From a virus: DNA of 25,361 bases. Made by a program: the position numbers and the translations under genes. The first letter of the stretch is position 1. Each line of letters begins with the position of its first letter. A model generated the notes under the pieces. That model did not search any database, was not told the origin of the DNA, and was given only the letters and a program-made list of their open reading frames with translations. This document shows positions 2,674-25,361 of this stretch, piece after piece. The DNA is taken from positions 1-25,361 of the IMG/VR virus record IMGVR_UViG_3300017781_001984; one strand, given 5' to 3'.

Positions 2674-3873
2674 ATGGCAGATGCCAATGTAATATTCACG
2701 GGTTGGGGCCGAGATAGTTGGAGTAGTGGTACTTGGAGTAATCCTGCCACTACTCTTCCCTCTGCATCTGGTCAAGTAGGCGCTGTCACAGTTGTTGGCA
2801 ATGCTCCGAATATTGTTGTCACTGGTGTAGGTGTTACAACAGGCGTTTCTCCTGTCTCTATTGCTGGTGCCGCAACGGTTCCAAACACTGGATTGCAAGC
2901 AACTGGGTCTGTTGGTTCTGTAACCGCACAAGCAAACTCTTCTATTAGTGTTATTGGTTTAGCAGCTACAAGTGCTGTTGGTTCTGTTGTTGCCTCCATC
3001 CCTGGAGAGATTGCGGTTACTGGTTTATCCGCTACAAGTGTTGTTGGCTCTGTAACAACTACGGGAACAAGCCTTGTTTCTCCAACAGGTATTTCTGCTA
3101 CTGCTTCAGTTGGCGGTTTACCAACACAACCTGTTGGGGTTTCTGCCACTGGCGGTGTGGGTGTTGTCTCAGTCAACGGGGCAATGATTGCTCTTGCTAC
3201 TGGAGTTCCAGGTATAACTGGGGTAGGCACTCCAACAATTATTGGCGATGCTCCAAACATCTCAACAACAGGATTAAACTCAACGGCAAGCGTTGGTTCT
3301 GTAACTGTAAGCGTTGGTACAGGCGTTGGCATAAATGTCACAGGTGTAGGTGTTTCTTCTTCTGTTGACTCTGTTACTGCTACGGGTGGAGTTGATGCCG
3401 CTGTTACAGGACTTGCAGCAACAGGTGGATTAAATGGAGTTACTGCTACAGGGATAGCGAGTATTCCGGTCACAGGATTACAAGCAACAGGTATTGTAAA
3501 CGGACTACCACAAAACGTTACTGTGTTCTTAACAACAGCGGATGCTTCTGGTTGGGGCAGAGCAACTTGGGGTGACGGAACATGGAGTCAGCCTGTAGCT
3601 ACAGATGTGGGGATGACAGCAAGCGTTGGTTCTGTTAGTGTCTCCCTCGTAAAAAGAGTGCCTGTTACAGGCTTAGAGGTGACAACGGGCGTTGGTTCTG
3701 TTAGTGTGTCTACAGGCACGGGTGTTGATGTTCCTGTAACAGGGGTATCTGCATCTGGACTAATTGGACCGAGAGGAGTAACTGTTTGGGGAAGAATAGT
3801 TCCAAATCCAACAACGACATGGACAAATATTGCACCAAACAAAACAAAAGAGTATGCTGAAATTAGACCTTAA
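2674..3873 (+). CDS. Repeat-rich tail/adhesin-like protein (VTGLxATxxVGS repeats, two GWG modules)
   Basis: The product has 399 residues and is nearly all Gly, Val, Thr, Ser and Ala. About 14 units of a roughly 22-residue repeat, consensus VTGLxATxxVGSVTV, cover residues 50-280 and 310-368. Clear examples are NTGLQATGSVGSVT at 71-84 and VTGLSATSVVGSVT at 115-128. Two copies of a Trp-rich module, TGWGRDSWSSGTW at 9-21 and SGWGRATWGDGTW at 292-304, divide the protein into two blocks. Such repeats should form stacked beta strands in a fibrous shaft. A TAGGAG ribosome-binding site precedes the ATG. Single repeat units occur in the proteins encoded at 127 and 12907, and a GWG module in the protein at 10988, so this family of segments is shared across the virion. 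Function is inferred, with no enzymatic motif. Confidence 0.72.
   Translation: MADANVIFTGWGRDSWSSGTWSNPATTLPSASGQVGAVTVVGNAPNIVVTGVGVTTGVSPVSIAGAATVPNTGLQATGSVGSVTAQANSSISVIGLAATSAVGSVVASIPGEIAVTGLSATSVVGSVTTTGTSLVSPTGISATASVGGLPTQPVGVSATGGVGVVSVNGAMIALATGVPGITGVGTPTIIGDAPNISTTGLNSTASVGSVTVSVGTGVGINVTGVGVSSSVDSVTATGGVDAAVTGLAATGGLNGVTATGIASIPVTGLQATGIVNGLPQNVTVFLTTADASGWGRATWGDGTWSQPVATDVGMTASVGSVSVSLVKRVPVTGLEVTTGVGSVSVSTGTGVDVPVTGVSASGLIGPRGVTVWGRIVPNPTTTWTNIAPNKTKEYAEIRP
2821..3777 (+). repeat. In-gene degenerate repeats encoding VTGLxATxxVGS units
   Basis: About 14 imperfect units of roughly 60-75 bases lie inside the 399-residue gene, interrupted at 3547-3594 by a Trp-rich module. The nucleotide sequence is also repetitive, with recurrent gttggttctgt cores (for example near 2906, 2978, 3292, 3622 and 3691). 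That suggests relatively recent duplication or recombination between units rather than ancient protein repeats alone. The number of units is counted by eye and the borders are approximate. Confidence 0.7.
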
Positions 3874-3889: not shown

Positions 3890-4924
3890 ATGGCTAGTAC
3901 ATATACAACAAATACAGGTATTGAACTGATTGCCAATGGCGAACAGTCTGGCACATGGGGCAATACCACAAATACAAACTTACAAATAATAGATCGTTTG
4001 ACGAATGGTGTTGGTTCTATAACTCTTTCGGGAACGACGCACACACTTACTACTACCGATGGATCTCTTTCTGATGGTCAGTACAGAGTTTTATTATTGG
4101 CAGGGTCTCCTTCGGGTACAAATACAATTACTGTAGCTCCAAACGATCAAACAAAATTGTTTTTTGTAAAAAATGGATCGGGACAAAGTGCGGTTTTCTC
4201 ACAAGGTTCTGGTGCAAATGTCACAGTACCTAATGGTGAAAGTGCTATTATATATTGCGATGGTGCGGGGTCAGGCGCGGCGGTGGTTAACATATCCGCA
4301 ACTTTTGATCTTACCACTTTTTTAGTAGCGTCTAATAACTTATCCGATGTAGGAAATGCAGCAACAGCTAGAGGAAACTTAGCTGCGGCTCCTCTTGCAA
4401 GCCCTACTTTCACAGGAACAGCAACTGCTCCCACTGTAAATGCTTCCACAGCTTTGCAGATAGGTGGTGTTGCAATAAGTGCTACAGCAGCAGAAATTAA
4501 CTATCTTGACATTGCAACTCTTGGCACAACAGCAGCATCGAAAGCTGTGACAGCAGATGCGAATGGTGTCGTTACTTTTGATAATGGTATCTATGAGGAA
4601 TACACAGCAGTCACATCATCATCGAATGCGACGACTGTAAATCTACGTGATGGCACAAACTTTAGTCATACTCTGACAGAAAACACCACATTTACATTTA
4701 GTAATCCAGCAGCGTCTGGTAAAGTTTCTACCTTTACCCTTAAATTAGTTCAGGATGGATCGGCGTCAGGTTTCACTGTAACGTGGCCCGGAAGCATAGA
4801 CTGGCCTGCGGCGACAGCACCAACATTAACTGCAACTGCAAATGCGGTCGATTACTTTGTTTTCATTTCACATGATGGTGGAACAACATACTATGGTTTT
4901 ACTGCTGGTCAAGCAATGGGGTAA
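3890..4924 (+). CDS. Tail fibre protein
   Basis: The product has 344 residues. The N-terminal domain (1-140) begins TGIELIANGEQSGTWGNTTN, a start typical of virion-anchored tail fibres, and is beta-rich. The middle (about 145-200) carries shaft motifs characteristic of tail fibres: ASNNLSDVGNAATARGNL, then LASPTFTGTATAPTVNAS and the TAAEINYLDIA element. The C-terminal domain (about 240-344) is a beta sandwich that ends YYGFTAGQAMG. No lyase, hydrolase or intramolecular chaperone motif is visible. A GGAG ribosome-binding site lies 11 bases before the ATG. The RCC1 gene follows after three bases, so the two are probably co-assembled components of the tail fibre or spike. Confidence 0.82.
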   Translation: MASTYTTNTGIELIANGEQSGTWGNTTNTNLQIIDRLTNGVGSITLSGTTHTLTTTDGSLSDGQYRVLLLAGSPSGTNTITVAPNDQTKLFFVKNGSGQSAVFSQGSGANVTVPNGESAIIYCDGAGSGAAVVNISATFDLTTFLVASNNLSDVGNAATARGNLAAAPLASPTFTGTATAPTVNASTALQIGGVAISATAAEINYLDIATLGTTAASKAVTADANGVVTFDNGIYEEYTAVTSSSNATTVNLRDGTNFSHTLTENTTFTFSNPAASGKVSTFTLKLVQDGSASGFTVTWPGSIDWPAATAPTLTATANAVDYFVFISHDGGTTYYGFTAGQAMG

Positions 4925-4927
4925 GGA

Positions 4928-7111
4928 ATGGGTAATACGAAAAAACTAATACAAGCTGCGGCTGGTGCAGGGGACGACTCAGTAACAGAATTTACTCTTT
5001 ACCAATGGGGTAAGAATACATACGGACAAATTGGCATGGGTTCATCTACATATAATCCAAGCTTAACTAAATACACATCAAGCAATGACTTTTCAGATGA
5101 TGATCGTGGTAGAAAAATAACTGCCTCTGGAGGGTCTTACTTAGCGATAAAAAGCGATGGAACTTGCTGGGCATTTGGAAGAAATGAAAATGGACAACTA
5201 GGACTTGGGGATTTGAATGATCGTTCATCTCCTGTTCAAGTTGGCACGGAAACAAACTTTACCGCAGTCTCTACGTCTGGATATCAGACGTTTTTTATTA
5301 GAGGCGGTAGTTTGTATGCGACGGGTGGAAACGCTTTTGGTAATTTAGGATTGGGTGACACGACACGTCGTTCATCTCCTGTGCAAGTATCATTTAGTTC
5401 TCCAGTAAGGATAGAAGCAGGCAAATATTTCAGTTCATTTGTAATTAATAGTAGTCAGAATCTTTACTCAACTGGATATAATTATCATGGTCAATTAGGG
5501 CAGGGGGATAAAACTAATAGATCTACATTTGCTCAAGTGGGTTCACAATCGTATTGGTCTGAAGTTGCCGCGTCTAACTGCGTTATCGCCGCTGGATCGG
5601 GCGGCAGATTATTTACGTGGGGTGAAAATAGTTATGGACAGCTAGGTGACGGAACGTCTGGAACATTTGCAGCAAAATGTTCGCCTGTTCAAATTGCCAC
5701 TGATAAGAGTTGGGATACAATTATTGCTTCGGCTAGTTATGGGCCACAATATGCGTGTGATAATAGCGGAAATCTTTGGGCTATAGGAGGCATTAATACT
5801 AGTGGTCAGCTAGGGATAGGCAACACGACATCAAGATCGTCGCCTGTTCAAGTTACTACAAACGTTGTAGGGGTCGCGGTAAACTCAAGTGGGTTTTCAG
5901 CATACTCAATGCTTTTAAAGGACAATGGCACAATTTGGAGTTGGGGTGTCGCAAGCGTAGGTGGATTAGCGGATGGAACTTGGGTAAGTAGATCATCTCC
6001 AGTGCAAGTTGGTTCACTTACAACTTGGGCATACCCTTCTGATGGAATTATAAAAACTACAGCTTCTGGGCAAAATGATTTATATATTTGGGGCAACGTT
6101 GGATATGCAACAGGTGCGGGAAATTTTAGTTCTCCAGTTCAAATAGGCTCTGTAAATGAATGGAAAACAAGTGCAAATGGAAATGATTTTTCTCTAGGAA
6201 TAAAAACAAATGGAACTCTGTGGTCTTGGGGCTACAATGGTTTTGGTCAGCTTGGCCTTGGTGATCTGAATATAAGAGCTTCTCCAACACAAATTGGAAG
6301 TGCTACTAATTGGTCAAAGATATCAGCAGGGACAAATCATGCAGCAGCAATTAACGAAGATGGTGATCTATACGTTTGGGGTAGTAATCAAGGTGGTAAA
6401 CTTGGCGTTGGTGACACAACAGATAGATGCGCTCCTATACAAGTGGGGTCAGAAAGTTACTTAGACATTGCTTGTGGTGGTGAACATACAGCATCAATTA
6501 GATCAAATGGAACGGTGTGGGTCTGGGGCGCACAGCAGTTTGGACAATTTGGTGTTGGTGACACCACATCAAGATCGTCGCCTGTTCAAACCACAAGTTA
6601 CACTGATGCTGTACAAATAGATGTAGGGAGTTACCACACCGTATTTAGGCGTAATAGTCAGGCTGGTTTGATGTTTGCAGGACTTAGTCAGTCTAGTCAG
6701 TCTGGGACTTACAGGAGCTCAAACGTTACTACTATGACTGAAGTTTTGACCTCATATACATTTAGTCATGTATCTAGCGGAGATAATCATCTAGGTGGTA
6801 TAGTTGGAACATCTCTATATATGTGGGGTACAAACTCAAACGGGGCTTTAGGGAACGGATCGAGTGGTAGTCATGCCACACCCGCGCAAGTTGCTGGTAA
6901 TTGGCTTACTGTATCTGCTGGAAAGAACAATACTTTTGCAGTTACAACAGATAATAAAATATACGCAACAGGTAATAATGGTCAGGGATATCTTGGTTTA
7001 GGCGATACGACTAACAGATCATCTTTTACGCAAATTGGCTCTAATACCACTTGGCATGCACTACCATCTAAGAGTCATAGTCAAGAGGCATTGGGTGGAC
7101 TTACAGAATGA
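4928..7111 (+). CDS. RCC1-repeat beta-propeller tail protein
   Basis: The product has 727 residues. After a short leader (MGNTKKLIQAAAGAG) it is entirely RCC1-type repeats of about 50 residues. The cores begin near residues 24, 80, 128, 178, 228, 283, 336, 385, 430, 480, 530, 580, 629 and 678, with typical forms such as WAFGRNENGQLGLGD and LWSWGYNGFGQLGLGD followed by RSSPVQVG. Twelve cores are clear; those near 385 and 580 are degenerate. Fourteen repeats would build two seven-bladed propellers. RCC1 domains are protein- and ligand-binding scaffolds. Between a tail fibre gene and a glycosyltransferase gene, this is best read as a receptor-binding tail protein. The gene ends in a 4-base ATGA overlap with the glycosyltransferase start, indicating coupled translation. 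No signal peptide is seen. Confidence 0.85.
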   Translation: MGNTKKLIQAAAGAGDDSVTEFTLYQWGKNTYGQIGMGSSTYNPSLTKYTSSNDFSDDDRGRKITASGGSYLAIKSDGTCWAFGRNENGQLGLGDLNDRSSPVQVGTETNFTAVSTSGYQTFFIRGGSLYATGGNAFGNLGLGDTTRRSSPVQVSFSSPVRIEAGKYFSSFVINSSQNLYSTGYNYHGQLGQGDKTNRSTFAQVGSQSYWSEVAASNCVIAAGSGGRLFTWGENSYGQLGDGTSGTFAAKCSPVQIATDKSWDTIIASASYGPQYACDNSGNLWAIGGINTSGQLGIGNTTSRSSPVQVTTNVVGVAVNSSGFSAYSMLLKDNGTIWSWGVASVGGLADGTWVSRSSPVQVGSLTTWAYPSDGIIKTTASGQNDLYIWGNVGYATGAGNFSSPVQIGSVNEWKTSANGNDFSLGIKTNGTLWSWGYNGFGQLGLGDLNIRASPTQIGSATNWSKISAGTNHAAAINEDGDLYVWGSNQGGKLGVGDTTDRCAPIQVGSESYLDIACGGEHTASIRSNGTVWVWGAQQFGQFGVGDTTSRSSPVQTTSYTDAVQIDVGSYHTVFRRNSQAGLMFAGLSQSSQSGTYRSSNVTTMTEVLTSYTFSHVSSGDNHLGGIVGTSLYMWGTNSNGALGNGSSGSHATPAQVAGNWLTVSAGKNNTFAVTTDNKIYATGNNGQGYLGLGDTTNRSSFTQIGSNTTWHALPSKSHSQEALGGLTE

Positions 7112-8112
7112 CAAAGAAACAACCTTTAGATTTAGCTTTTGAAGCAGCATTGCGCGGAGACTATGAGAAGTCAGAGTCAATCCTTCGCACTTGTGAACAG
7201 AACGATGCTCGTGTGGTTTTCAACTTAGGCTGGCATGAGTTGCGGCACGGGAATCTTTCAAAAGGATTGTCAATGTTGGACGCTGGAAGATTTATAAATG
7301 TTTATGGATCTCCACCCATAAAGGGGGAAATGTGGTTCGATCAAGACTTGAACGGTAAAACGCTTATGCTGCGTTGTGAGGGGGGCATGGGTGATGAGAT
7401 GTTGCAAGTTCGCTGGGTTAAACATTTTGAAGAGATGGGAGCTAATGTAATTGTTTCTTGCCACCAAACGCTTAAAGAGTTTTTATCAGCAAACGGAATG
7501 ACTTGTATTGACTCAAACTTCGAACACTTTATGCATTATGATTACTGGCTACCAGCCAAGTCGATTGCACCTTTACTAGGTTACGAGTATAGTACTCTAT
7601 CTGGAAAGAAATACTTAAAGGCAGCTAGTAAGCGGGAATTGTATTCTAAACCAGGCACACTAAAAGTTGGTATCAGGTGGGCTGGAAATCCTGAGTTTGA
7701 ACATCAGCAATTTCGTACATTTGATCCTAATTATTTAACCAGTCTGCATGAGCGTCCTGAGTTAACCTTGTACTCATTACAGCGTGATGAAGACATGATA
7801 GATGGTTTGCCCTTTGCTGATCTGCGAGATCAAATGCAAACTTGGAGCGATACCGCAGAAATAATTTCTGGATTGGATTTAGTCATATCATCTTGCACAT
7901 CTATTGTTCACTTGGCGGGTGCGTTGGGTGTAGAGGTTTGGGTTTTGACTCCAGTTATGCCATATTATACATGGGCAAAGCTTGAGAACAAAACGGAATG
8001 GTATGATAGTGTTAAAATATTCCGTCAAAAAACCTTTAACAACTGGGATGAGCCATTTAAGGAAGTGCGTGAATCACTAGACAAACGTTGCAAAACCTTT
8101 AAAGCAGCATAA
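7108..8112 (+). CDS. TPR-linked GT9-type glycosyltransferase (heptosyltransferase-like)
   Basis: The product has 334 residues. Residues 1-75 form TPR-like helices (LAFEAALRGDYEKSESIL, then VVFNLGWHELRHGN). The rest is a GT-B fold of the GT9/ADP-heptose LPS heptosyltransferase type: a GGMGDEMLQVRWV loop at 92-104, VGIRWAGNPEFEHQQFRTF at 187-205, DLVISSCTSIVHLAGALG at 257-274, then PYYTWA and a WYDSVKIFRQ end. This enzyme class transfers an activated sugar, usually ADP-heptose, to LPS or to protein. In the C-terminal nucleotide-sugar loop many relatives have Asp-Thr where this protein has Cys-Thr (263-264), which may mark a subfamily. The gene overlaps the RCC1 gene by four bases and precedes ADP-heptose biosynthesis genes, so ADP-heptose is the likely donor. 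The acceptor is unknown. Confidence 0.78.
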   Translation: MTKKQPLDLAFEAALRGDYEKSESILRTCEQNDARVVFNLGWHELRHGNLSKGLSMLDAGRFINVYGSPPIKGEMWFDQDLNGKTLMLRCEGGMGDEMLQVRWVKHFEEMGANVIVSCHQTLKEFLSANGMTCIDSNFEHFMHYDYWLPAKSIAPLLGYEYSTLSGKKYLKAASKRELYSKPGTLKVGIRWAGNPEFEHQQFRTFDPNYLTSLHERPELTLYSLQRDEDMIDGLPFADLRDQMQTWSDTAEIISGLDLVISSCTSIVHLAGALGVEVWVLTPVMPYYTWAKLENKTEWYDSVKIFRQKTFNNWDEPFKEVRESLDKRCKTFKAA

Positions 8113-8123
8113 GGAGAAATAGT

Positions 8124-8525
8124 ATGCGATATGGATATGTTGTAGATGGCGCAGTGGCTGAAGGCCCAAAGGCTTTGCCTAAAGCGTGGAAAAACATTTC
8201 TAACTTTCACAACCTTTCAGAGGAAGAATTAAAAAATCATGGTTGGTTGCCTTGGAAATTAGTAGAGGCAACGGGTCAAGTGTTTGAAGGTTCAACAGTG
8301 GCTATTGGTGCAAGTGAGATTGTAGAAACTCAAAAGTATCGTGACAAAACAGAAGACGAGTTAGCAGCAGATGAACTTAACCGCATTGAGGAAATCAACG
8401 CAAGACGTCGAGCCGACTATGCAGCAGAAGCGGACGGCTTGTTTTTTAAATGGAAGCGCGGCGAAGGAACTGAAGCTGAGTGGCTAAATAAAGTTGAAGA
8501 GATTAAGGTCCGTCACCTCAAGTGA
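8124..8525 (+). CDS. Tail-fibre-associated/assembly-type phage protein
   Basis: The product has 133 residues. The N-terminal half (MRYGYVVDGAVAEGPKALP, then NLSEEELKNHGWLPWKLVE) resembles the N-terminal part of small phage proteins encoded next to tail fibres, in which a 'LSxEEL...GWLP' segment recurs. The C-terminal half is a charged helix (about 75-133) ending VEEIKVRHLK. No enzymatic motif is seen. An AGGAG ribosome-binding site lies just upstream of the ATG. The stop overlaps the GTG start of the nucleotidyltransferase gene by four bases. A chaperone or assembly role for the tail fibre or RCC1 protein is inferred from the pattern and location. It separates the glycosyltransferase from the sugar-nucleotide genes. 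Confidence 0.6.
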   Translation: MRYGYVVDGAVAEGPKALPKAWKNISNFHNLSEEELKNHGWLPWKLVEATGQVFEGSTVAIGASEIVETQKYRDKTEDELAADELNRIEEINARRRADYAAEADGLFFKWKRGEGTEAEWLNKVEEIKVRHLK

Positions 8526-8956
8526 TTGTTTTTACTAATGGTTGTTTCGATATTTTGCATGCGGGTCATGTACAGTATTTGCAAAGATCGCGGGAACTTG
8601 GGTCTAAGTTGATTGTCGGACTTAACTCAGACAGTTCAGTCAGAAATATAAAAGGTCAAGAAAGACCTATAAACAATCAAGATGATAGAGCATTTGTTTT
8701 GAGATCTCTTTCTTGTGTTGATGAGGTTTGTATTTTTTGTGATGACACACCTTATTCATTGATACGTCAAATACGTCCAAACATTATTACTAAAGGTGGT
8801 GATTACAGTATAGATAAAGTTGTTGGGCATGATATAGCCAAGGTTGTTATTTTGCCTTATACTGATGGCAAATCAACGAGTGGAGTTATACATGCAATTA
8901 AAGGGAATAGTTGCAAAGGGTTGGGGTCGAGAAAACATCTGGTGCAGCAACGATAA
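8522..8956 (+). CDS. hldE: HldE C-terminal-type heptose-1-phosphate adenylyltransferase (stand-alone)
   Basis: The product has 144 residues, close to the second domain of bifunctional HldE/RfaE. It would transfer a nucleotide (ATP in the known family) to D-glycero-beta-D-manno-heptose 1-phosphate, giving ADP-heptose. Visible motifs are VFTNGCFDILHAGH at 3-16 with the HxGH signature at 13-16, GLNSDSSVRNIKG at about 33-45, PINNQDDRAFVLRSL, a TKGGDY segment near 90 and a GKSTSGVI end near 115. These match the RfaE domain II pattern closely. The GTG start at 8522 is chosen because the nucleotide-binding motif begins at residue 3; it overlaps the previous stop by four bases. The last 20 or so residues overlap the cupin gene in another frame and are probably dispensable. 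Confidence 0.85.
   Translation: MIVFTNGCFDILHAGHVQYLQRSRELGSKLIVGLNSDSSVRNIKGQERPINNQDDRAFVLRSLSCVDEVCIFCDDTPYSLIRQIRPNIITKGGDYSIDKVVGHDIAKVVILPYTDGKSTSGVIHAIKGNSCKGLGSRKHLVQQR
8882..8885 (+). promoter_or_regulatory. Ribosome-binding site (GGAG) that sets the cupin start
   Basis: A GGAG six bases before the ATG at 8892 lies inside the nucleotidyltransferase gene. It supports starting the cupin at 8892, immediately before the conserved KGWGRE segment, rather than at an in-frame TTG upstream. Confidence 0.6.
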
Positions 8957-9248
8957 GTATTGTGGAAAGACGCTAGAGTTTAATTCTGGTGCAAAGTTTT
9001 CAATGCACTTTCACCGCGAAAAAGATGAAACATGGTTTGTTCTTAGCGGAAAATTTACTGTTACAATAATTAATACTAAGGACGCTACCAGAAGCACGAT
9101 AAAGTTAAATGTTGGCGATACTTGGCATAATCCACCATTATTGCCCCATCAGTTGCATTGCGTTGAGGCTGGAACCATTGTTGAAGTGTCTACGCCAGAC
9201 AGCGTTGAGGATAACTATAGAGTCGAAGTGGGAGATAGTCAGAAATGA
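8892..9248 (+). CDS. Single-domain cupin, mannose-6-phosphate-isomerase (type II)-like
   Basis: The product has 118 residues. It begins with a KGWGREN segment like the PWG motif of PMI-type cupins. Cupin motif 1 is perfect: G33-x5-H39-x-H41-x4-E46-x6-G53, in SMHFHREKDETWFVLSG. Motif 2 (GDTWHNPPLLPHQLH, 75-89) supplies His89. The C-terminus EVSTPDSVEDNYRVE follows the ending of ManC-type isomerase domains. A metal-dependent sugar-phosphate isomerase or epimerase is therefore likely. It lies between the two separated HldE domains, overlapping the first by 65 bases and the second by four. That context suggests it acts on heptose phosphates, possibly replacing GmhA, but this is inference. Other sugar-binding roles for a small cupin are possible. 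Confidence 0.72.
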   Translation: MQLKGIVAKGWGRENIWCSNDKYCGKTLEFNSGAKFSMHFHREKDETWFVLSGKFTVTIINTKDATRSTIKLNVGDTWHNPPLLPHQLHCVEAGTIVEVSTPDSVEDNYRVEVGDSQK

Positions 9249-10042
9249 AGGTTTGTGTAATAGGTGATGCTTGCATTGATGTTTATCATACTGGTGATAC
9301 AAGTCGTAAAAATCCAGAAGCGTCTACGCCTTTATTAAACAACGTGAAAACCACAAAGAAGAACGGCATGGCACTGAATGTTGCGGAGAACATGTCAAAG
9401 CTAGGCGCACATGTTGAGGTAATTATTCCAAGAGGCAATCTGATTGAAAAGCATAGATACATCGATCAGAAGCATGGCAATCAATATCTTAGAGTTGATT
9501 ATGATATTCCATATAAGCGCATCAATGTATTACCTGATCTAAAAAAATATCACGCTGTTCTTGTGTGCGATTATAATAAAGGCTTTCTAACCAAGGCAGA
9601 TATTATAGCTCTTTCTCAACATAAAAACGTTTACATTGACACGAAAAAGAAAGATTTACGTGGATCTGGTGATGCTCTTTTTAAGATAAATGAGCATGAA
9701 TATAACGGATTAATCCATGAGCCAAAGAACTTTATAGTCACCTATGGAGCGCAAGGGGCTTTTTACGATGGCATTTTGTACAAGGCTGAAGCTTTAGAGG
9801 CAGTTGATGTGTGTGGTGCAGGCGACACGTTCCTAGCAGCTCTTGCATTTAGCAGATCAAAATCAAACACAATGGATAAAGCTATCAAGTTTGCAAACTT
9901 ATGCGCGGGTATAACATGCACAAAGCGAGGGACTTATGCGCCAACAAATAAAGAAGTATATAGTAGACATAGATGGAACAATTTGCACACAGACAAAGAG
10001 CGATTATTCAAATGCACAACCGATAAAGGATCGAATAAATAA
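9245..10042 (+). CDS. hldE: HldE N-terminal-type heptose-7-phosphate kinase (PfkB family, stand-alone)
   Basis: The product has 265 residues and is a PfkB-family sugar kinase of the RfaE domain I type. In that family the reaction is phosphorylation of D-glycero-D-manno-heptose 7-phosphate at C1. Evidence is VIGDACIDVYHTGDTSRKNPEAS at the N-terminus (the family's 'GD...D.Y..G..SR..PEA' start, 5-27), ALNVAENMSKLG at 43-54, LRVDYD near 82, and the anion-hole motif GAGDTF at 191-196 with the catalytic Asp194, then LCAGITCTKRGT at 219-230. It is shorter than the usual domain of over 310 residues, mainly from a loss between 60 and 75. The last 27 residues after NKEV have no family match and overlap the HAD gene. 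It overlaps the cupin stop by four bases (ATGA), preceded by a GGGAG. Confidence 0.83.
   Translation: MKVCVIGDACIDVYHTGDTSRKNPEASTPLLNNVKTTKKNGMALNVAENMSKLGAHVEVIIPRGNLIEKHRYIDQKHGNQYLRVDYDIPYKRINVLPDLKKYHAVLVCDYNKGFLTKADIIALSQHKNVYIDTKKKDLRGSGDALFKINEHEYNGLIHEPKNFIVTYGAQGAFYDGILYKAEALEAVDVCGAGDTFLAALAFSRSKSNTMDKAIKFANLCAGITCTKRGTYAPTNKEVYSRHRWNNLHTDKERLFKCTTDKGSNK
9927..9931 (+). promoter_or_regulatory. Ribosome-binding site (GAGGG) inside the kinase gene
   Basis: GAGGG four bases before the ATG at 9936 supports an independent start for the HAD phosphatase within the kinase coding sequence. This argues against a simple frameshift artefact joining the two. Confidence 0.5.
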
Positions 10043-10232
10043 GATTAATAAACTATATAATGACGGTCATTACATTGTTTATTGGACGGCTCGTGGCATG
10101 TCTTCTAATACAGACTGGACAGATTTAACATATAAACAGCTAAACAGTTGGGGTTGCAAGTATCATGAGATTAATATGCGGAAACCATCATATGATGTAT
10201 GGGTAGATGATAAAGCTAAATGGCTATTTTGA
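9936..10232 (+). CDS. Minimal HAD-superfamily phosphatase
   Basis: The product has 98 residues and shows all HAD motifs: DIDGT at 11-15 (nucleophile Asp11, acid/base Asp13), Thr51 in YWTARG (motif II), Lys83 in MRKPSYD (motif III) and D91-D92 in WVDDKA (motif IV). No cap domain is present. Such small HADs occur beside sugar-nucleotide genes. By context it could remove the C7 phosphate of heptose 1,7-bisphosphate, as GmhB does, although GmhB is nearly twice as long. Substrate is inference. The start overlaps the kinase gene by 107 bases; the catalytic motif begins only ten residues in, so no shorter start is possible. It overlaps the epimerase gene by 13 bases. Confidence 0.78.
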   Translation: MRQQIKKYIVDIDGTICTQTKSDYSNAQPIKDRINKINKLYNDGHYIVYWTARGMSSNTDWTDLTYKQLNSWGCKYHEINMRKPSYDVWVDDKAKWLF

Positions 10233-10987
10233 TAACAGGACACAAAGGTTTTATAGGCCAGAACATGATGACAGCTTTTCCTGATGTCATTGGTTATGAG
10301 TGGGGTGATGGCGACATATGTCTTAAGGATATAAGTGCAGTTATTCACTTAGGTGCCATATCTAGCACAGCTTGTAATGACTGGGATTTGCTCAAGCAGC
10401 AGAACGTAGATTTTTCCAAACAACTTTTAGATGCATGTTCAGAGCGCAAGATACATTTTCAGTTTACATCATCGGCATCTGTTTATGGTGTAGATGCTAA
10501 GTCTTTTAACGAAAGTGACGCAGTGCAGCCCGCAAACCTTTATGCAAAAAGCAAACGTGCGGTTGAGGAATACATACTAAGCAAAGAGTGGCCTATGCCT
10601 GTTCAGGCGTTTAGATACTTTAACGTCCACGGTAAGCATGAGGATCACAAGGATCAGCCATCACCTCACAGCCTATTTAAGAGACAAGCAAAACAATCTG
10701 GGGTAATAACTTTGTTTGAAGACAGCCGAAAATATAAGCGAGACTTTATTCCTGTAAATAATGTGGTAAACATACATAAGAAGTTTTTGCAGAAATCAGA
10801 AAGCGGCGTATTCAACGTGGGCAGTGGCAGAGCTACAAGTTTTTATGATATAGCACATTCTGTAGCAACCTTAACTGGTGCAAGAGTTAAAGAAATACCT
10901 ATGCCAGACCATATGATAAAGACCTATCAAAAGTTTACAAAAGCTGATATGGTGAAAACTAACAATATTTTGAACATGGATGAGTAA
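10220..10987 (+). CDS. hldD: ADP-L-glycero-D-manno-heptose 6-epimerase-type SDR (HldD-like)
   Basis: The product has 255 residues and is an extended short-chain dehydrogenase/reductase. The Rossmann motif is GHKGFIG at 7-13, SSASVYG lies at 84-90, and the catalytic pair is Tyr108/Lys112 in YAKSK. The downstream segments are diagnostic of HldD/RfaD: FRYFNVHGKHEDHKD (131-145), a FEDSRKYKRDFIPVNNVV region near 166-183, FNVGSGRATSF (198-208) and PMPDHMIKTYQKFTKADM (227-244). HldD uses NADP to invert C6 of ADP-D-glycero-D-manno-heptose. This copy is shorter than the usual 310 or so residues: it stops just after the 'T.AD' helix, losing about 45-50 C-terminal residues. It ends immediately before the nozzle gene and overlaps the HAD gene by 13 bases. 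Confidence 0.85.
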   Translation: MAILITGHKGFIGQNMMTAFPDVIGYEWGDGDICLKDISAVIHLGAISSTACNDWDLLKQQNVDFSKQLLDACSERKIHFQFTSSASVYGVDAKSFNESDAVQPANLYAKSKRAVEEYILSKEWPMPVQAFRYFNVHGKHEDHKDQPSPHSLFKRQAKQSGVITLFEDSRKYKRDFIPVNNVVNIHKKFLQKSESGVFNVGSGRATSFYDIAHSVATLTGARVKEIPMPDHMIKTYQKFTKADMVKTNNILNMDE

Positions 10988-21970: not shown

Positions 21971-22160
21971 TCAGTTTGATGCCGTTACCACCAAATATTT
22001 TTAGCAGTTCGTCTGCAAAAGCTTCGGTGTCTTCTATTATTTGATCGTCTTTTGTAAGCGTAGCCAAGTTCAATGTTATGCTTATAAACTCTACAAGTGC
22101 ATCAACTTGCATCTTGTGCATATCTTTAAGGCCAAGACTTTTAAATTCTTTTTCAAACAT
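21951..22160 (-). CDS. Small helical protein of unknown function
   Basis: The product has 69 residues. It is mostly helical and amphipathic (MFEKEFKSLGLKDMHKMQ, then EDTEAFADELLKIFGG) and ends KLTIEEAD. No motif is recognised. The ATG at 22160 is favoured because it shares one base with the polymerase stop (TAATG), the coupling seen repeatedly here. An in-frame TTG 18 bases upstream is less likely. GGGGAG lies about 10 bases upstream of the ATG. The gene is last in the minus-strand unit. Confidence 0.6.
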   Translation of the reverse strand: MFEKEFKSLGLKDMHKMQVDALVEFISITLNLATLTKDDQIIEDTEAFADELLKIFGGNGIKLTIEEAD

Positions 22161-24061
22161 TATGTTATATCTCCCCAATCATTTTGAATATCTACGTCAA
22201 TTTTAGAAGGAACTTTGAGTGCAATACCCGTCTCCATAATCTCTTTAATCTTGTCGGTTTGCTCTTGATTTTCTATGTTAAAACATAGCTCATCGTGTAC
22301 CGTAAGCATAGGAGTAAGTCCCTCGTTGTAGCAATCGAGCATTGCTTTCTTAGTTTGATCTGCTGCTGAACCTTGAATCAATCTGTTTAACGCCTTGTAA
22401 GTAAACGCTCTTTTAATCAAAGGTCCGTATTCTTTTTGTGCCTCGTCATGTTGCAAAGGTTTTCCTGCACCAAACTTCTTTGGCTCCCACAATGGAAAGC
22501 GGCACTTGCGTCCAAGCAAAGTTCGTATCTGACCAAACTTAGATGCCTGCTGCATTGCAAGTTCTGCAAGAGATTTAACAAACGGAACTTTACTTTGATG
22601 ATTGTCCATCAGTTCCCTCGCATCTTCCTTTGAAATGTCTAACTGGTTGGCTAACTTACCCACACCCATGCCATACATAATCCCCAGGTTCACAGTTTTG
22701 GCTTGCTTACGATCAATGCCTGCTATGTCTGCTACCATCTGGTGCAGATCTACATCACCTGTATTAAATTCATCGACGATCTGATCCACCATGTCATGCC
22801 GATTGACCCCTCGAACCGAAGCTGCAAAGTGGACAAGGAGCCGTGGCTCTTGGCTTGAGTAGTCGAAAGATCCCCACTTGCATCCATCGTTAGGAACAAA
22901 AAGGCCACGGATCAGTTTCTTTATATCCTTATCTCTGGCAGGTATTTGCTGGAGATTCGGATTGGAGCTTGAGAACCGACCCGTGACAGTGCCACCCTCA
23001 TCGCGTCTCGTAGAGTGGAGTTCCGTATGGATACGTCCATTGTGCTCATGTCGAAGGATGCTGTCAATAAAAGTTGAGTCGGCTTTGTCAAATTCTCTGA
23101 GCTTGACAAGTGTCTTACATACATCAGATGGATGACTCGTTAGGAACTCTTTCGTAAAGCTTGGCGCACCCTTCTCGGTTCTTGGATACGGTATATCAAG
23201 CTTATCAAACATCTTTGCAATCGATGCCGACGCCCATATGTCTACGTCTAGTCCTGATTCTTTCTTGAGAAACTTTCGAAATGAATCATTTTTCTTCTTG
23301 ATTAGTTTCTTATTTACATCAGCTTTGTCCAGGTCAACCCTCACGCCTTGTGTTCGCATGTCCAACATGCACGGTATCAATCCTATCTCAAGGTGCCAGA
23401 TGTCCCACAACTCTTCCTTTTGTAGTATTGGTTTGAGTGCATCCCATAGTTTGAGTGTAGCGACGGCATCCTGTTCCGCATATGCACCCACATACTTGGG
23501 CGGTAGCTTCCACATCTCAGCCTTTGGATCTATGCCCCACTCTTTCGCAGCTGCCTGTAGGAGCTTCTCATCTTTCCGCTGAGAGATGTAATCCCTTGCC
23601 ATGGCATCCAACCCGAAAGACCACCTGTTCTCGTCTACAAGAGCCCCTGTGATCATCGTATCGACTATCTTACCCTCAATCTCAATGCCCTCGGCGCGTA
23701 ACCAACCTGCATCGTAGGTAGCATTGTGCATAATCACATTCATATCTGGCACGGACAATTGTTTCTTGAGCCATCGCAACGTGAACTTCGGATCTAGATT
23801 GTGCCCGTTTGAATGCCGGATAGGAAAGTACCCTTGGTATTCTCCTGCTGCTACGGCTATGCCTATGATGTATCCATCGTTCCGTGCCCACCCAGGGCCT
23901 AATGTTTTGATGTTTGGATCATAGGTTTCTAGATCAACTGCTATCTCCTTATAACCTGTGAGGTCTGGGAACTCTGGAGGTATGTTCCAGTCCACATCTA
24001 CTAGATCCATTTCACCTCGGATCTGGTAGTTTTGATCACTTCCGAATAGATTTTTTTGCAT
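22160..24061 (-). CDS. polA: Family A DNA polymerase with 3'-5' exonuclease
   Basis: The product has 633 residues. It has a DnaQ-like exonuclease domain with D43-L-E45 (ExoI), N113/D117 in MHNATYDAGWL (ExoII) and D198 in YAEQDAVAT (ExoIII), so proofreading residues look intact. The polymerase domain carries TVTGRFSSSNPNLQQIP (358-374), motif A FDYSSQEPR (399-407, Asp400), motif B RKQAKTVNLGIMYG (451-464) and motif C VHDE (588-591, Asp590). There is no 5'-nuclease domain, as is usual in phages. Motif B has Leu459 where E. coli Pol I has Phe762, a variant linked in the literature to phages with slower or temperate-like replication. The gene overlaps the DUF6378-type gene by 26 bases and is co-directional with the helicase, forming a replication module. 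Confidence 0.95.
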   Translation of the reverse strand: MQKNLFGSDQNYQIRGEMDLVDVDWNIPPEFPDLTGYKEIAVDLETYDPNIKTLGPGWARNDGYIIGIAVAAGEYQGYFPIRHSNGHNLDPKFTLRWLKKQLSVPDMNVIMHNATYDAGWLRAEGIEIEGKIVDTMITGALVDENRWSFGLDAMARDYISQRKDEKLLQAAAKEWGIDPKAEMWKLPPKYVGAYAEQDAVATLKLWDALKPILQKEELWDIWHLEIGLIPCMLDMRTQGVRVDLDKADVNKKLIKKKNDSFRKFLKKESGLDVDIWASASIAKMFDKLDIPYPRTEKGAPSFTKEFLTSHPSDVCKTLVKLREFDKADSTFIDSILRHEHNGRIHTELHSTRRDEGGTVTGRFSSSNPNLQQIPARDKDIKKLIRGLFVPNDGCKWGSFDYSSQEPRLLVHFAASVRGVNRHDMVDQIVDEFNTGDVDLHQMVADIAGIDRKQAKTVNLGIMYGMGVGKLANQLDISKEDARELMDNHQSKVPFVKSLAELAMQQASKFGQIRTLLGRKCRFPLWEPKKFGAGKPLQHDEAQKEYGPLIKRAFTYKALNRLIQGSAADQTKKAMLDCYNEGLTPMLTVHDELCFNIENQEQTDKIKEIMETGIALKVPSKIDVDIQNDWGDIT

Positions 24062-24371
24062 CTTTTATCATCTCCTCAATGCTTCGCTCGTCTCTTGTTA
24101 CGAACTCTGCACCTAATGCTGTATATCCTGCCTTATCAATCCACGAATCCTCGTGGTCTATAGTCTCAAGTAGTCTGCTTGTTTTAACCCAGTCCATCAT
24201 CAACGCGACGTGAGCTGCGGTTAGGTATCCGTGGGATCTTAACGCCCCACTTATGATTATGTTCCATCCCTCTGCAATGCGGTCATGGTTTTCGAAAGCG
24301 TCCCCGTAATCTTTTGCACGAGGTCCGTTAACTAATTTTTCTGCTGCTTCTAGTAGTTCTTTTCTGTTCAT
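24036..24371 (-). CDS. DUF6378-type phage protein
   Basis: The product has 111 residues. It carries the pattern PRAKDYGDAFENHDRIAEGWN at its N-terminus (about 17-37), followed by AAHVALMMDWVKTSRLLE (57-74) and DSWIDKAGYTALGAEF (80-95), which is typical of the DUF6378 family found in many phages. Function of the family is unknown to me, although the helical His/Glu/Asp-bearing pattern recalls MazG-like or related metal-dependent nucleotide pyrophosphatases. The ATG overlaps the helicase stop by four bases, and the end overlaps the polymerase start by 26 bases. Co-transcription with replication genes would suit a nucleotide-pool or replication accessory role. Confidence 0.8.
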   Translation of the reverse strand: MNRKELLEAAEKLVNGPRAKDYGDAFENHDRIAEGWNIIISGALRSHGYLTAAHVALMMDWVKTSRLLETIDHEDSWIDKAGYTALGAEFVTRDERSIEEMIKDAKKSIRK

Positions 24372-25361
24372 AACATGTACCTGTATTTGTTTCCTGTTAA
24401 AACGATATAGAGATTGTGTCGTGCTCTTGTTACGCCGACATAAAATGCCCGATGCTCATCATCTGGGTGGTCACTGTTCACACATGCAGCGGTGGACTTA
24501 TCCAACACTACACAGTTGTCATCCTCTCCACCCTTCATTGCATGAAACGTTGAGACTTTGATACGGGGTTTAGAAGTTAGATCCTCACCTCTACGATAGA
24601 TTGCTTCGATGTAATCTCGTTCCTTGTAACTTACTTTTAATATATCATATGCCGCGTGACTTGCATCTCGGAGCAAACCAAACTCATCCAGAAGTGTATC
24701 CATGTCTACTTCATCCTCGGCACTCAAGACCTCCAATAGTTTTGAGGCACCTCGTTTAACAACGGCATCTTCCCCTTGCTTGGGTACAGCAGCGTAAAGT
24801 CTTTTGATCCGTTCTGTATTGATCTTCTTACCTTGGCACAGATCATCCCATGTCATCATGTTCTCAACCAGTTTCTCTGAGATGCTAGGTCTGCCCTTGA
24901 TAGAATATTTAAACCCAGAGTTTCGCAGAAAAGAAGCAACGTCCCTGACATATCTGTTTGTTCTTGTCATGATTGTCCAAGACCCTTCATTCAAAGGGAT
25001 CTGATCTATGTAATATACATACTCAACAGTGCCCAGTTCATCACGGGGATCAAACTTCTTTTCAATACGCCCATCGATGCGGTTGGCTATATTAGCTGCC
25101 AGTTCATGGACACGTCTTGGTATACGGTACGACTGCGTTAGGTACTCAACATTATTAGAGCTTTGAATAAACAAGTCTACATTAACACCAGTCCAACGAT
25201 GTACAGCTTGGTCATCATCTCCTGCAATAATTATCTTACCTGCACACTCAGACATACCCTTAACCATCTCCCATTGTAACGGTGTGAAGTCTTGTGCCTC
25301 ATCCACAAACAAGTAGTCTAGGTTTGGATACTCACCCAGTTCAATGTATCGTTCAATCATA
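24368..25361 (-). CDS. SF1 UvrD/Rep-type DNA helicase (5' end beyond window)
   Basis: The last 330 residues of a superfamily 1 helicase are visible; the gene continues past the right edge, where the Walker A motif must lie. Numbering from the first in-window Met: motif II DEAQD at 20-24, motif III AGDDDQAVHRWTG at 46-58, motif IV-like YLTQSYRIP at 73-81, a TRTNR segment at 132-136, motif V-like STFHAMKGGED at 270-280, and motif VI FYVGVTRARHN at 306-316. The whole is a UvrD/PcrA/Rep-like 3'-5' helicase type. It is co-directional with the polymerase and likely unwinds DNA in replication or repair. The ATG near 25358-25360 is probably internal, not the true start. Confidence 0.9.
   Translation of the reverse strand, partial: MIERYIELGEYPNLDYLFVDEAQDFTPLQWEMVKGMSECAGKIIIAGDDDQAVHRWTGVNVDLFIQSSNNVEYLTQSYRIPRRVHELAANIANRIDGRIEKKFDPRDELGTVEYVYYIDQIPLNEGSWTIMTRTNRYVRDVASFLRNSGFKYSIKGRPSISEKLVENMMTWDDLCQGKKINTERIKRLYAAVPKQGEDAVVKRGASKLLEVLSAEDEVDMDTLLDEFGLLRDASHAAYDILKVSYKERDYIEAIYRRGEDLTSKPRIKVSTFHAMKGGEDDNCVVLDKSTAACVNSDHPDDEHRAFYVGVTRARHNLYIVLTGNKYRYML

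Follow-up and report, generated by a model that had tools for sequence, protein, structure and literature searches.

A gene for an RCC1-repeat tail protein followed by a gene for a glycosyltransferase (GT) with a TPR-like N-terminus forms a conserved pair in the viral and contig sequences that we compared, and their adjacency there is far beyond chance. The pair is carried by many aquatic phages, and its conservation across unrelated viruses suggests that these phages sugar-coat their own host-recognition protein. We consider it reasonably likely that the GT is a dedicated cytoplasmic protein glycosyltransferase, which would act much as FlmG does and decorate the RCC1 tail adhesin prior to tail assembly. 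Virion glycosylation (in mycobacteriophages) and adhesin heptosylation (by TibC) are known, whereas the RCC1–GT pair is apparently new, as no earlier description of it was found in the open-licence literature. The DNA analysed (hereafter named the window) is a whole virus record of 25361 bases, possibly a fragment of a genome.

The RCC1 gene and its junction with the GT gene

The RCC1 gene (4928..7111, plus strand) encodes a tail protein of 727 residues, which we propose as acceptor and adhesin. It matched PF00415 with E=1e-85 and 12 RCC1 stretches, and its score of 282.6 bits against a cut-off of 21.7 placed the RCC1 repeats above threshold. The protein is probably composed of two seven-bladed propellers; its AlphaFold model (pLDDT 52) was too poor for inspection. 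Immediately 5′ of it lies a gene for a tail-fibre-like protein on the same strand (3890..4924; phrog_9017 tail fiber, E=2e-14). RCC1-like matches are rare in phages (29 of 50697 phage records). At many loci the lengths of the paired RCC1 proteins fell into steps of approximately 380, 730, 1075 and 1430 residues, which suggests that RCC1 tail proteins grow by whole propellers. One open RCC1 frame of more than 2700 residues was seen in L310 (3-8192), and L387 (1310-10185) held seven complete tandem RCC1 genes, or eight with the partial first, with no GT in view. The gene after this array is APS-kinase-like (PF01583, E=2e-10), a hint of sulfate-donor supply. In L105, a contig resembling a prophage, RCC1 was preceded by a gene with a P22-type tailspike head-binding domain, which places RCC1 in the receptor-binding module.

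As an earlier note on this DNA had stated, the RCC1 stop and the start of the GT gene (7108..8112, plus strand) share the four bases ATGA (7108..7111). A Shine–Dalgarno-like GGTGGA is located 8 nt 5′ of the GT start. Taken singly, the overlap is weak evidence because other junctions of the window overlap likewise: an exact 4-nt overlap was present at four further junctions in this densely packed window, and ATGA coupling was therefore rejected as evidence in itself. Among 94 RCC1–GT junctions, 30 overlapped by 4 or 1 nt, 24 had a gap of 0–30 nt, 39 had a gap of 31–140 nt and one was unclear. The same note had pointed to a richness of the RCC1 protein in Ser/Thr/Asn. The content is as described (S+T 23%, N 7%), but it has no special status, since adjoining tail proteins reach 26% S+T, and it was rejected as evidence for glycosylation. 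An SSPxQ loop was likewise rejected as a GT-specific acceptor motif, being present in the RCC1 array of L387 and absent from the RCC1 proteins of S-SRM01 that adjoin a GT.

Conservation and exchange of the pair

Scans of IMG/VR and GTDB contigs yielded 309 GT ORFs in 156 clusters at 90% identity. Upstream sequence of 600 nt or more was available for 146 of the clusters. RCC1, scored as adjacent when it lay no more than 300 nt upstream, was found directly upstream of the GT at 94 of these distinct loci. When the GTs were ranked by their score to the window GT, RCC1 was adjacent in 41 of 42 members of the near clade (score >300) and in 44 of 54 in the band of 200–300, giving 85/96 for the two closest bands together; the lower bands gave 2/10 (150–200), 6/26 (100–150) and 1/14 (below 100). 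Many GTs scoring 100–200 had RCC1 slightly farther away, and a methyltransferase gene frequently separated the two. The tree built from 145 GT domains (IQ-TREE quick search with SH-aLRT) had long branches and was midpoint rooted, and thus serves for clustering, not polarity. A clade of 101 GTs (SH-aLRT 98) had RCC1 adjacent in 88, within 3 kb in nine and absent in four, and in a separate group of 17, in which the GT of phage MW202512 joins 16 multi-TPR proteins from bacteria, RCC1 was adjacent in none (0/17). Clustering of the RCC1 label this strong was obtained in 0 of 500 shuffles.

Four distinct phages had a GT match among the phage records. In BUCT-ZZ01 and S-SRM01 the GT directly follows RCC1, in AG-345-E08 RCC1 is approximately 1.2 kb off, and MW202512 has none. 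An RCC1-only query returned eight loci, all eight with a GT within approximately 1.3 kb. With an RCC1 alignment as query, the GT was found within 300 nt at 53 of 62 informative loci and within 1 kb at four more, although the resulting 57/62 is biased upward because GT-bearing loci supplied most of the seed alignment. In Gram-positive phages (those of Clostridioides, Bacillus, Brevibacillus and Listeria), no such GT adjoined RCC1, indicating that some RCC1 tail proteins can do without glycosylation. The backgrounds bearing the pair include podovirus, T4-like and prophage ones. The adjacency counts and the tree support the functional tie between the two genes that had been proposed from the window. 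RCC1-linked or related GTs were also seen in contigs of Patescibacteria/Woesearchaeota MAGs (L106, L107, L109 and L113), where they may be of virus origin, host genes or the product of mis-binning.

The window backbone resembles those of L008, L013 and L015 (72–75% for the tail gene, 62–64% for the stabilisation protein and 55–60% for HldD), but the window GT is only 35–36% identical to their GTs, the upper value of each range being that of L008; in L008 (7549-9360) and relatives, the RCC1-linked GT carries a sulfotransferase (PF13469, E=5e-18) at its N-terminus. The closest relatives of the window GT, at 58–59% identity, are the GTs of L003, L005 and L027; these phages are built on another backbone, and their sequenced flanks held no heptose genes. 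GT and RCC1 distances were correlated (Mantel r=0.33; the highest of 2000 permutations was 0.16). On these identities and distances, RCC1 and GT appear to travel together, swapping between backbones independently of heptose genes.

RCC1 genes without this GT after them were often followed by a GT25, sulfotransferase, methyltransferase or 2OG-Fe(II) oxygenase gene, or else by one for a tail-assembly-like protein; a sulfotransferase domain was fused to many of the GTs. Taken together, the neighbouring modifying enzymes, the GT fusions and the head-binding domain of L105 suggest that RCC1 tail proteins are chemically decorated. Only tentatively do we extend this to a widespread strategy, in which extendable RCC1 adhesins would be glycosylated, sulfated, hydroxylated or methylated by adjoining enzymes and exchanged with them as cassettes.

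Fold and relatives of the glycosyltransferase

The AlphaFold model of the 334-residue GT, made with 32 relatives, had a pLDDT of 93.4, and the closest solved structures were 1psw, 3tov, TibC (4rap) and WaaC (Foldseek/VIA). The VIA Z-scores were 15.9 for WaaF, 15.9 for 3tov, 15.8 for TibC (246 residues, rmsd 3.2) and 15.1 for WaaC, and other folds reached approximately 11 or lower (other GT-B folds 11 to 9), except for one chain at 12.5. Judged by this model, the GT has a heptosyltransferase-type GT-B catalytic domain. The GT profile gave no match to PDB chain sequences, and a single-sequence search of PDB chains matched designed TPR-like repeats only. The GT9-type assignment made earlier holds at the level of the fold, the GD motif and a weak PF01075 match of the L003 homologue (E=0.012, 15.4 bits against a cut-off of 22); it does not hold as a family match, as the window GT had no GT9 (PF01075) match above the Pfam gathering cut-off. 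Bacterial relatives scored 19–22 bits with PF01075.

The GGMGDE of the GT was aligned by hhalign with the WaaC-type SSLGDV (E=1.8e-5, probability 78%). GGxGD is an invariant motif among the GT relatives, D96 included. The catalytic role of the GD-motif Asp is established for WaaC, and Asp110 of TibC fills this role (PMC4358343). Arg203, Thr264 and His268 were invariant even in distant members, and motif mapping suggests that their GT9 counterparts are the conserved Lys, Thr/Ser and His. The GT9 DTG motif reads CTS, with the Asp replaced by Cys263 (Cys in 32/32 relatives) and the T/S and His kept; thus the donor or the chemistry may differ from those of heptosyltransferases. Conservation of this Cys among bacterial GTs is a selection effect, since the genome-scan pattern required it. 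The four N-terminal helices of the model (residues 6–63) resemble two TPR hairpins and bacterial homologues have long Pfam TPR arrays, bearing out the TPR-like helices of the earlier note.

The TibC or Aah gene adjoins its adhesin gene, and these enzymes, which form dodecamers and use ADP-heptose, had been put forward as analogues of the GT. TibC is indeed among the closest solved folds and shares an adhesin-modifying logic; it has an iron-finger of four cysteines (339, 342, 358 and 370) and an N-terminal β-barrel (residues 1–97) (PMC4358343). The window GT has none of the TibC-type iron-finger cysteines (its own are 29, 90, 118, 133, 263 and 328, of which only 118 and 263 are conserved in 32/32), and the TibC-type barrel is absent from its model, which has the four helices instead. 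Furthermore, the acceptor of TibC/Aah is a β-helix autotransporter, whereas the proposed phage acceptor is a β-propeller. The analogy therefore extends to the heptosyltransferase fold but not to family membership. FlmG of Caulobacter, in which a TPR part binds flagellin and a GT-B part O-glycosylates it (PMC7591256), is by analogy the better functional precedent. It is soluble, has a TPR N-terminus and a GT-B C-terminus, a layout that the phage GT model shares, and acts on a surface filament protein. The likeness is drawn from architecture; FlmG has 596 residues and uses pseudaminic acid on flagellin, whereas the phage GT is much shorter, with two TPR-like hairpins. WaaF and WaaC, the GT9 LPS heptosyltransferases, provided the best fold match and have the catalytic GD motif; the phage GT differs from them in falling below the Pfam GT9 cut-off, in CTS for DTG, in the extra TPR-like domain and in being linked to RCC1 rather than to LPS genes. 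In mycobacteriophages, virions likewise carry glycans and the phages encode GTs (Freeman et al. 2023, cited in PMC11256854 and PMC12619734), but the citing passages concern other virion proteins (capsid and tail tube), describe the glycans as a shield and mention no RCC1 partner.

Sugar donor and proposed role

Downstream of the GT, on the plus strand, is a gene for a small protein weakly like phage proteins (8124..8525; phrog_2432, E=7e-8), possibly of the tail-fibre assembly chaperone type judging from its position and an analogue in L064, where a Phage_tail_APC protein (PF16778, E=2e-21) comes after the RCC1–GT pair. It is followed on the same strand by genes for an HldE-C type heptose-1-phosphate adenylyltransferase (8522..8956; TIGR02199, E=2.5e-51, 173 bits against a cut-off of 181.5), a cupin protein of uncertain start codon (8844..9248; PF07883, E=7e-9, and PF01050, E=1e-5), an HldE-N type heptose-7-phosphate kinase, a short PfkB (9245..10042; TIGR02198, E=2.4e-32, below the equivalog cut-off), a small HAD phosphatase with a putative GmhB role (9936..10232; TIGR01689 EcbF-BcbF, E=1.2e-8, below cut-off) and an HldD type ADP-heptose 6-epimerase (10220..10987; TIGR02197, E=4.5e-57, below the equivalog cut-off). 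Across 8522-10987, HldE is split into kinase and adenylyltransferase with the cupin between them, and overlaps reach 107 nt. A virion stabilisation-type protein is encoded 3′ of the cluster. No GmhA was seen among the window genes scanned, in a record that may be a fragment. Together these genes would make up most of an ADP-heptose pathway, 'heptose' being a best guess because none of the assignments reaches its NCBIfam equivalog cut-off. Cyanophages such as S-CAM1 have annotated HldD-like genes, and rfaE has been reported in pelagimyophages (PMC7029224). Towards its end (22160-25360), the window switches to the minus strand with PolA, DUF6378 and UvrD-like genes, and the GC skew changes sign.

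Among the 62 pairs for which 4.5 kb or more of downstream sequence was available, 6 had heptose genes nearby; the window pair was the only such case in the near clade. Heptose was therefore rejected as the general donor, and with so few pairs near heptose genes RCC1 is the common denominator. The proposed use of ADP-heptose is plausible in the window phage, which has its own heptose genes, but fails as a general rule, as the relatives with 58–59% identical GTs are without them; even for the window phage we regard this donor as possible and somewhat doubtful.

In the mechanism that we propose, the RCC1 propeller protein, a product of the tail-fibre region, would be synthesised in the host cytoplasm, and the GT, made right after it, would hold it by the N-terminal TPR-like hairpins. 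The heptosyltransferase-type GT-B domain would then attach a sugar to surface Ser/Thr/Asn residues of RCC1 before tail assembly. The window phage may make ADP-heptose with its own HldE-N, HAD phosphatase, HldE-C and HldD homologues together with host GmhA, and in most relatives the donor would have to come from the host. Sequence and model show the gene identities, the fold, the catalytic motif, the conserved pairing and its independence from heptose genes. We infer the presence of RCC1 in the virion, its receptor-binding and acceptor roles, the modified residues and the donor, as well as the benefit, which may lie in adhesion tuning, protection or stability; adjacency of RCC1 and GT does not prove an enzyme–substrate relation.

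The usual explanation for phage-encoded GTs is that they modify DNA or the surface of the host. The GT might alter host surface glycans (LPS/capsule), thereby blocking superinfection or re-adsorption, and neighbour RCC1 through a host-recognition island. The closeness of the fold to WaaF/WaaC and the ADP-heptose genes in the same operon are consistent with this, and GTs of the pelagimyophage host-recognition cluster have been read so (PMC7029224). However, the fixed order directly after RCC1 in very diverse phages, the exchange of RCC1 and GT as a pair, the TPR-like N-terminus and the absence of nearby heptose genes at most pairs make it unlikely. A target other than RCC1 among the virion proteins, such as the tail fibre of 3890-4924 or 2674-3873, is more improbable still; these neighbours are as Ser/Thr-rich (26%), yet the upstream tail proteins vary or are missing among loci and RCC1 is the constant partner. 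The GT could also have kept its fold but not catalysis and serve RCC1 as a chaperone of folding or assembly, as might be expected from its being nearly always encoded with RCC1, its TPR-like part and the Cys in place of the DTG Asp. We give this very little credence, given that even distant members keep the GD motif, Arg203, Thr264 and His268 without change and that the modifying enzymes found beside other RCC1 genes are unrelated.

If the GT does glycosylate the RCC1 adhesin, sugar-coating of their own tail protein would be a third, testable role for phage GTs, in many aquatic phages, and host range could depend on host sugar metabolism. If decoration of RCC1 adhesins is as widespread as suggested above, phages would vary their host-contact proteins in chemistry and not in sequence alone. 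With a single annotation rule, 'RCC1 then TPR-GT', hundreds of unexplained genes would receive a label.
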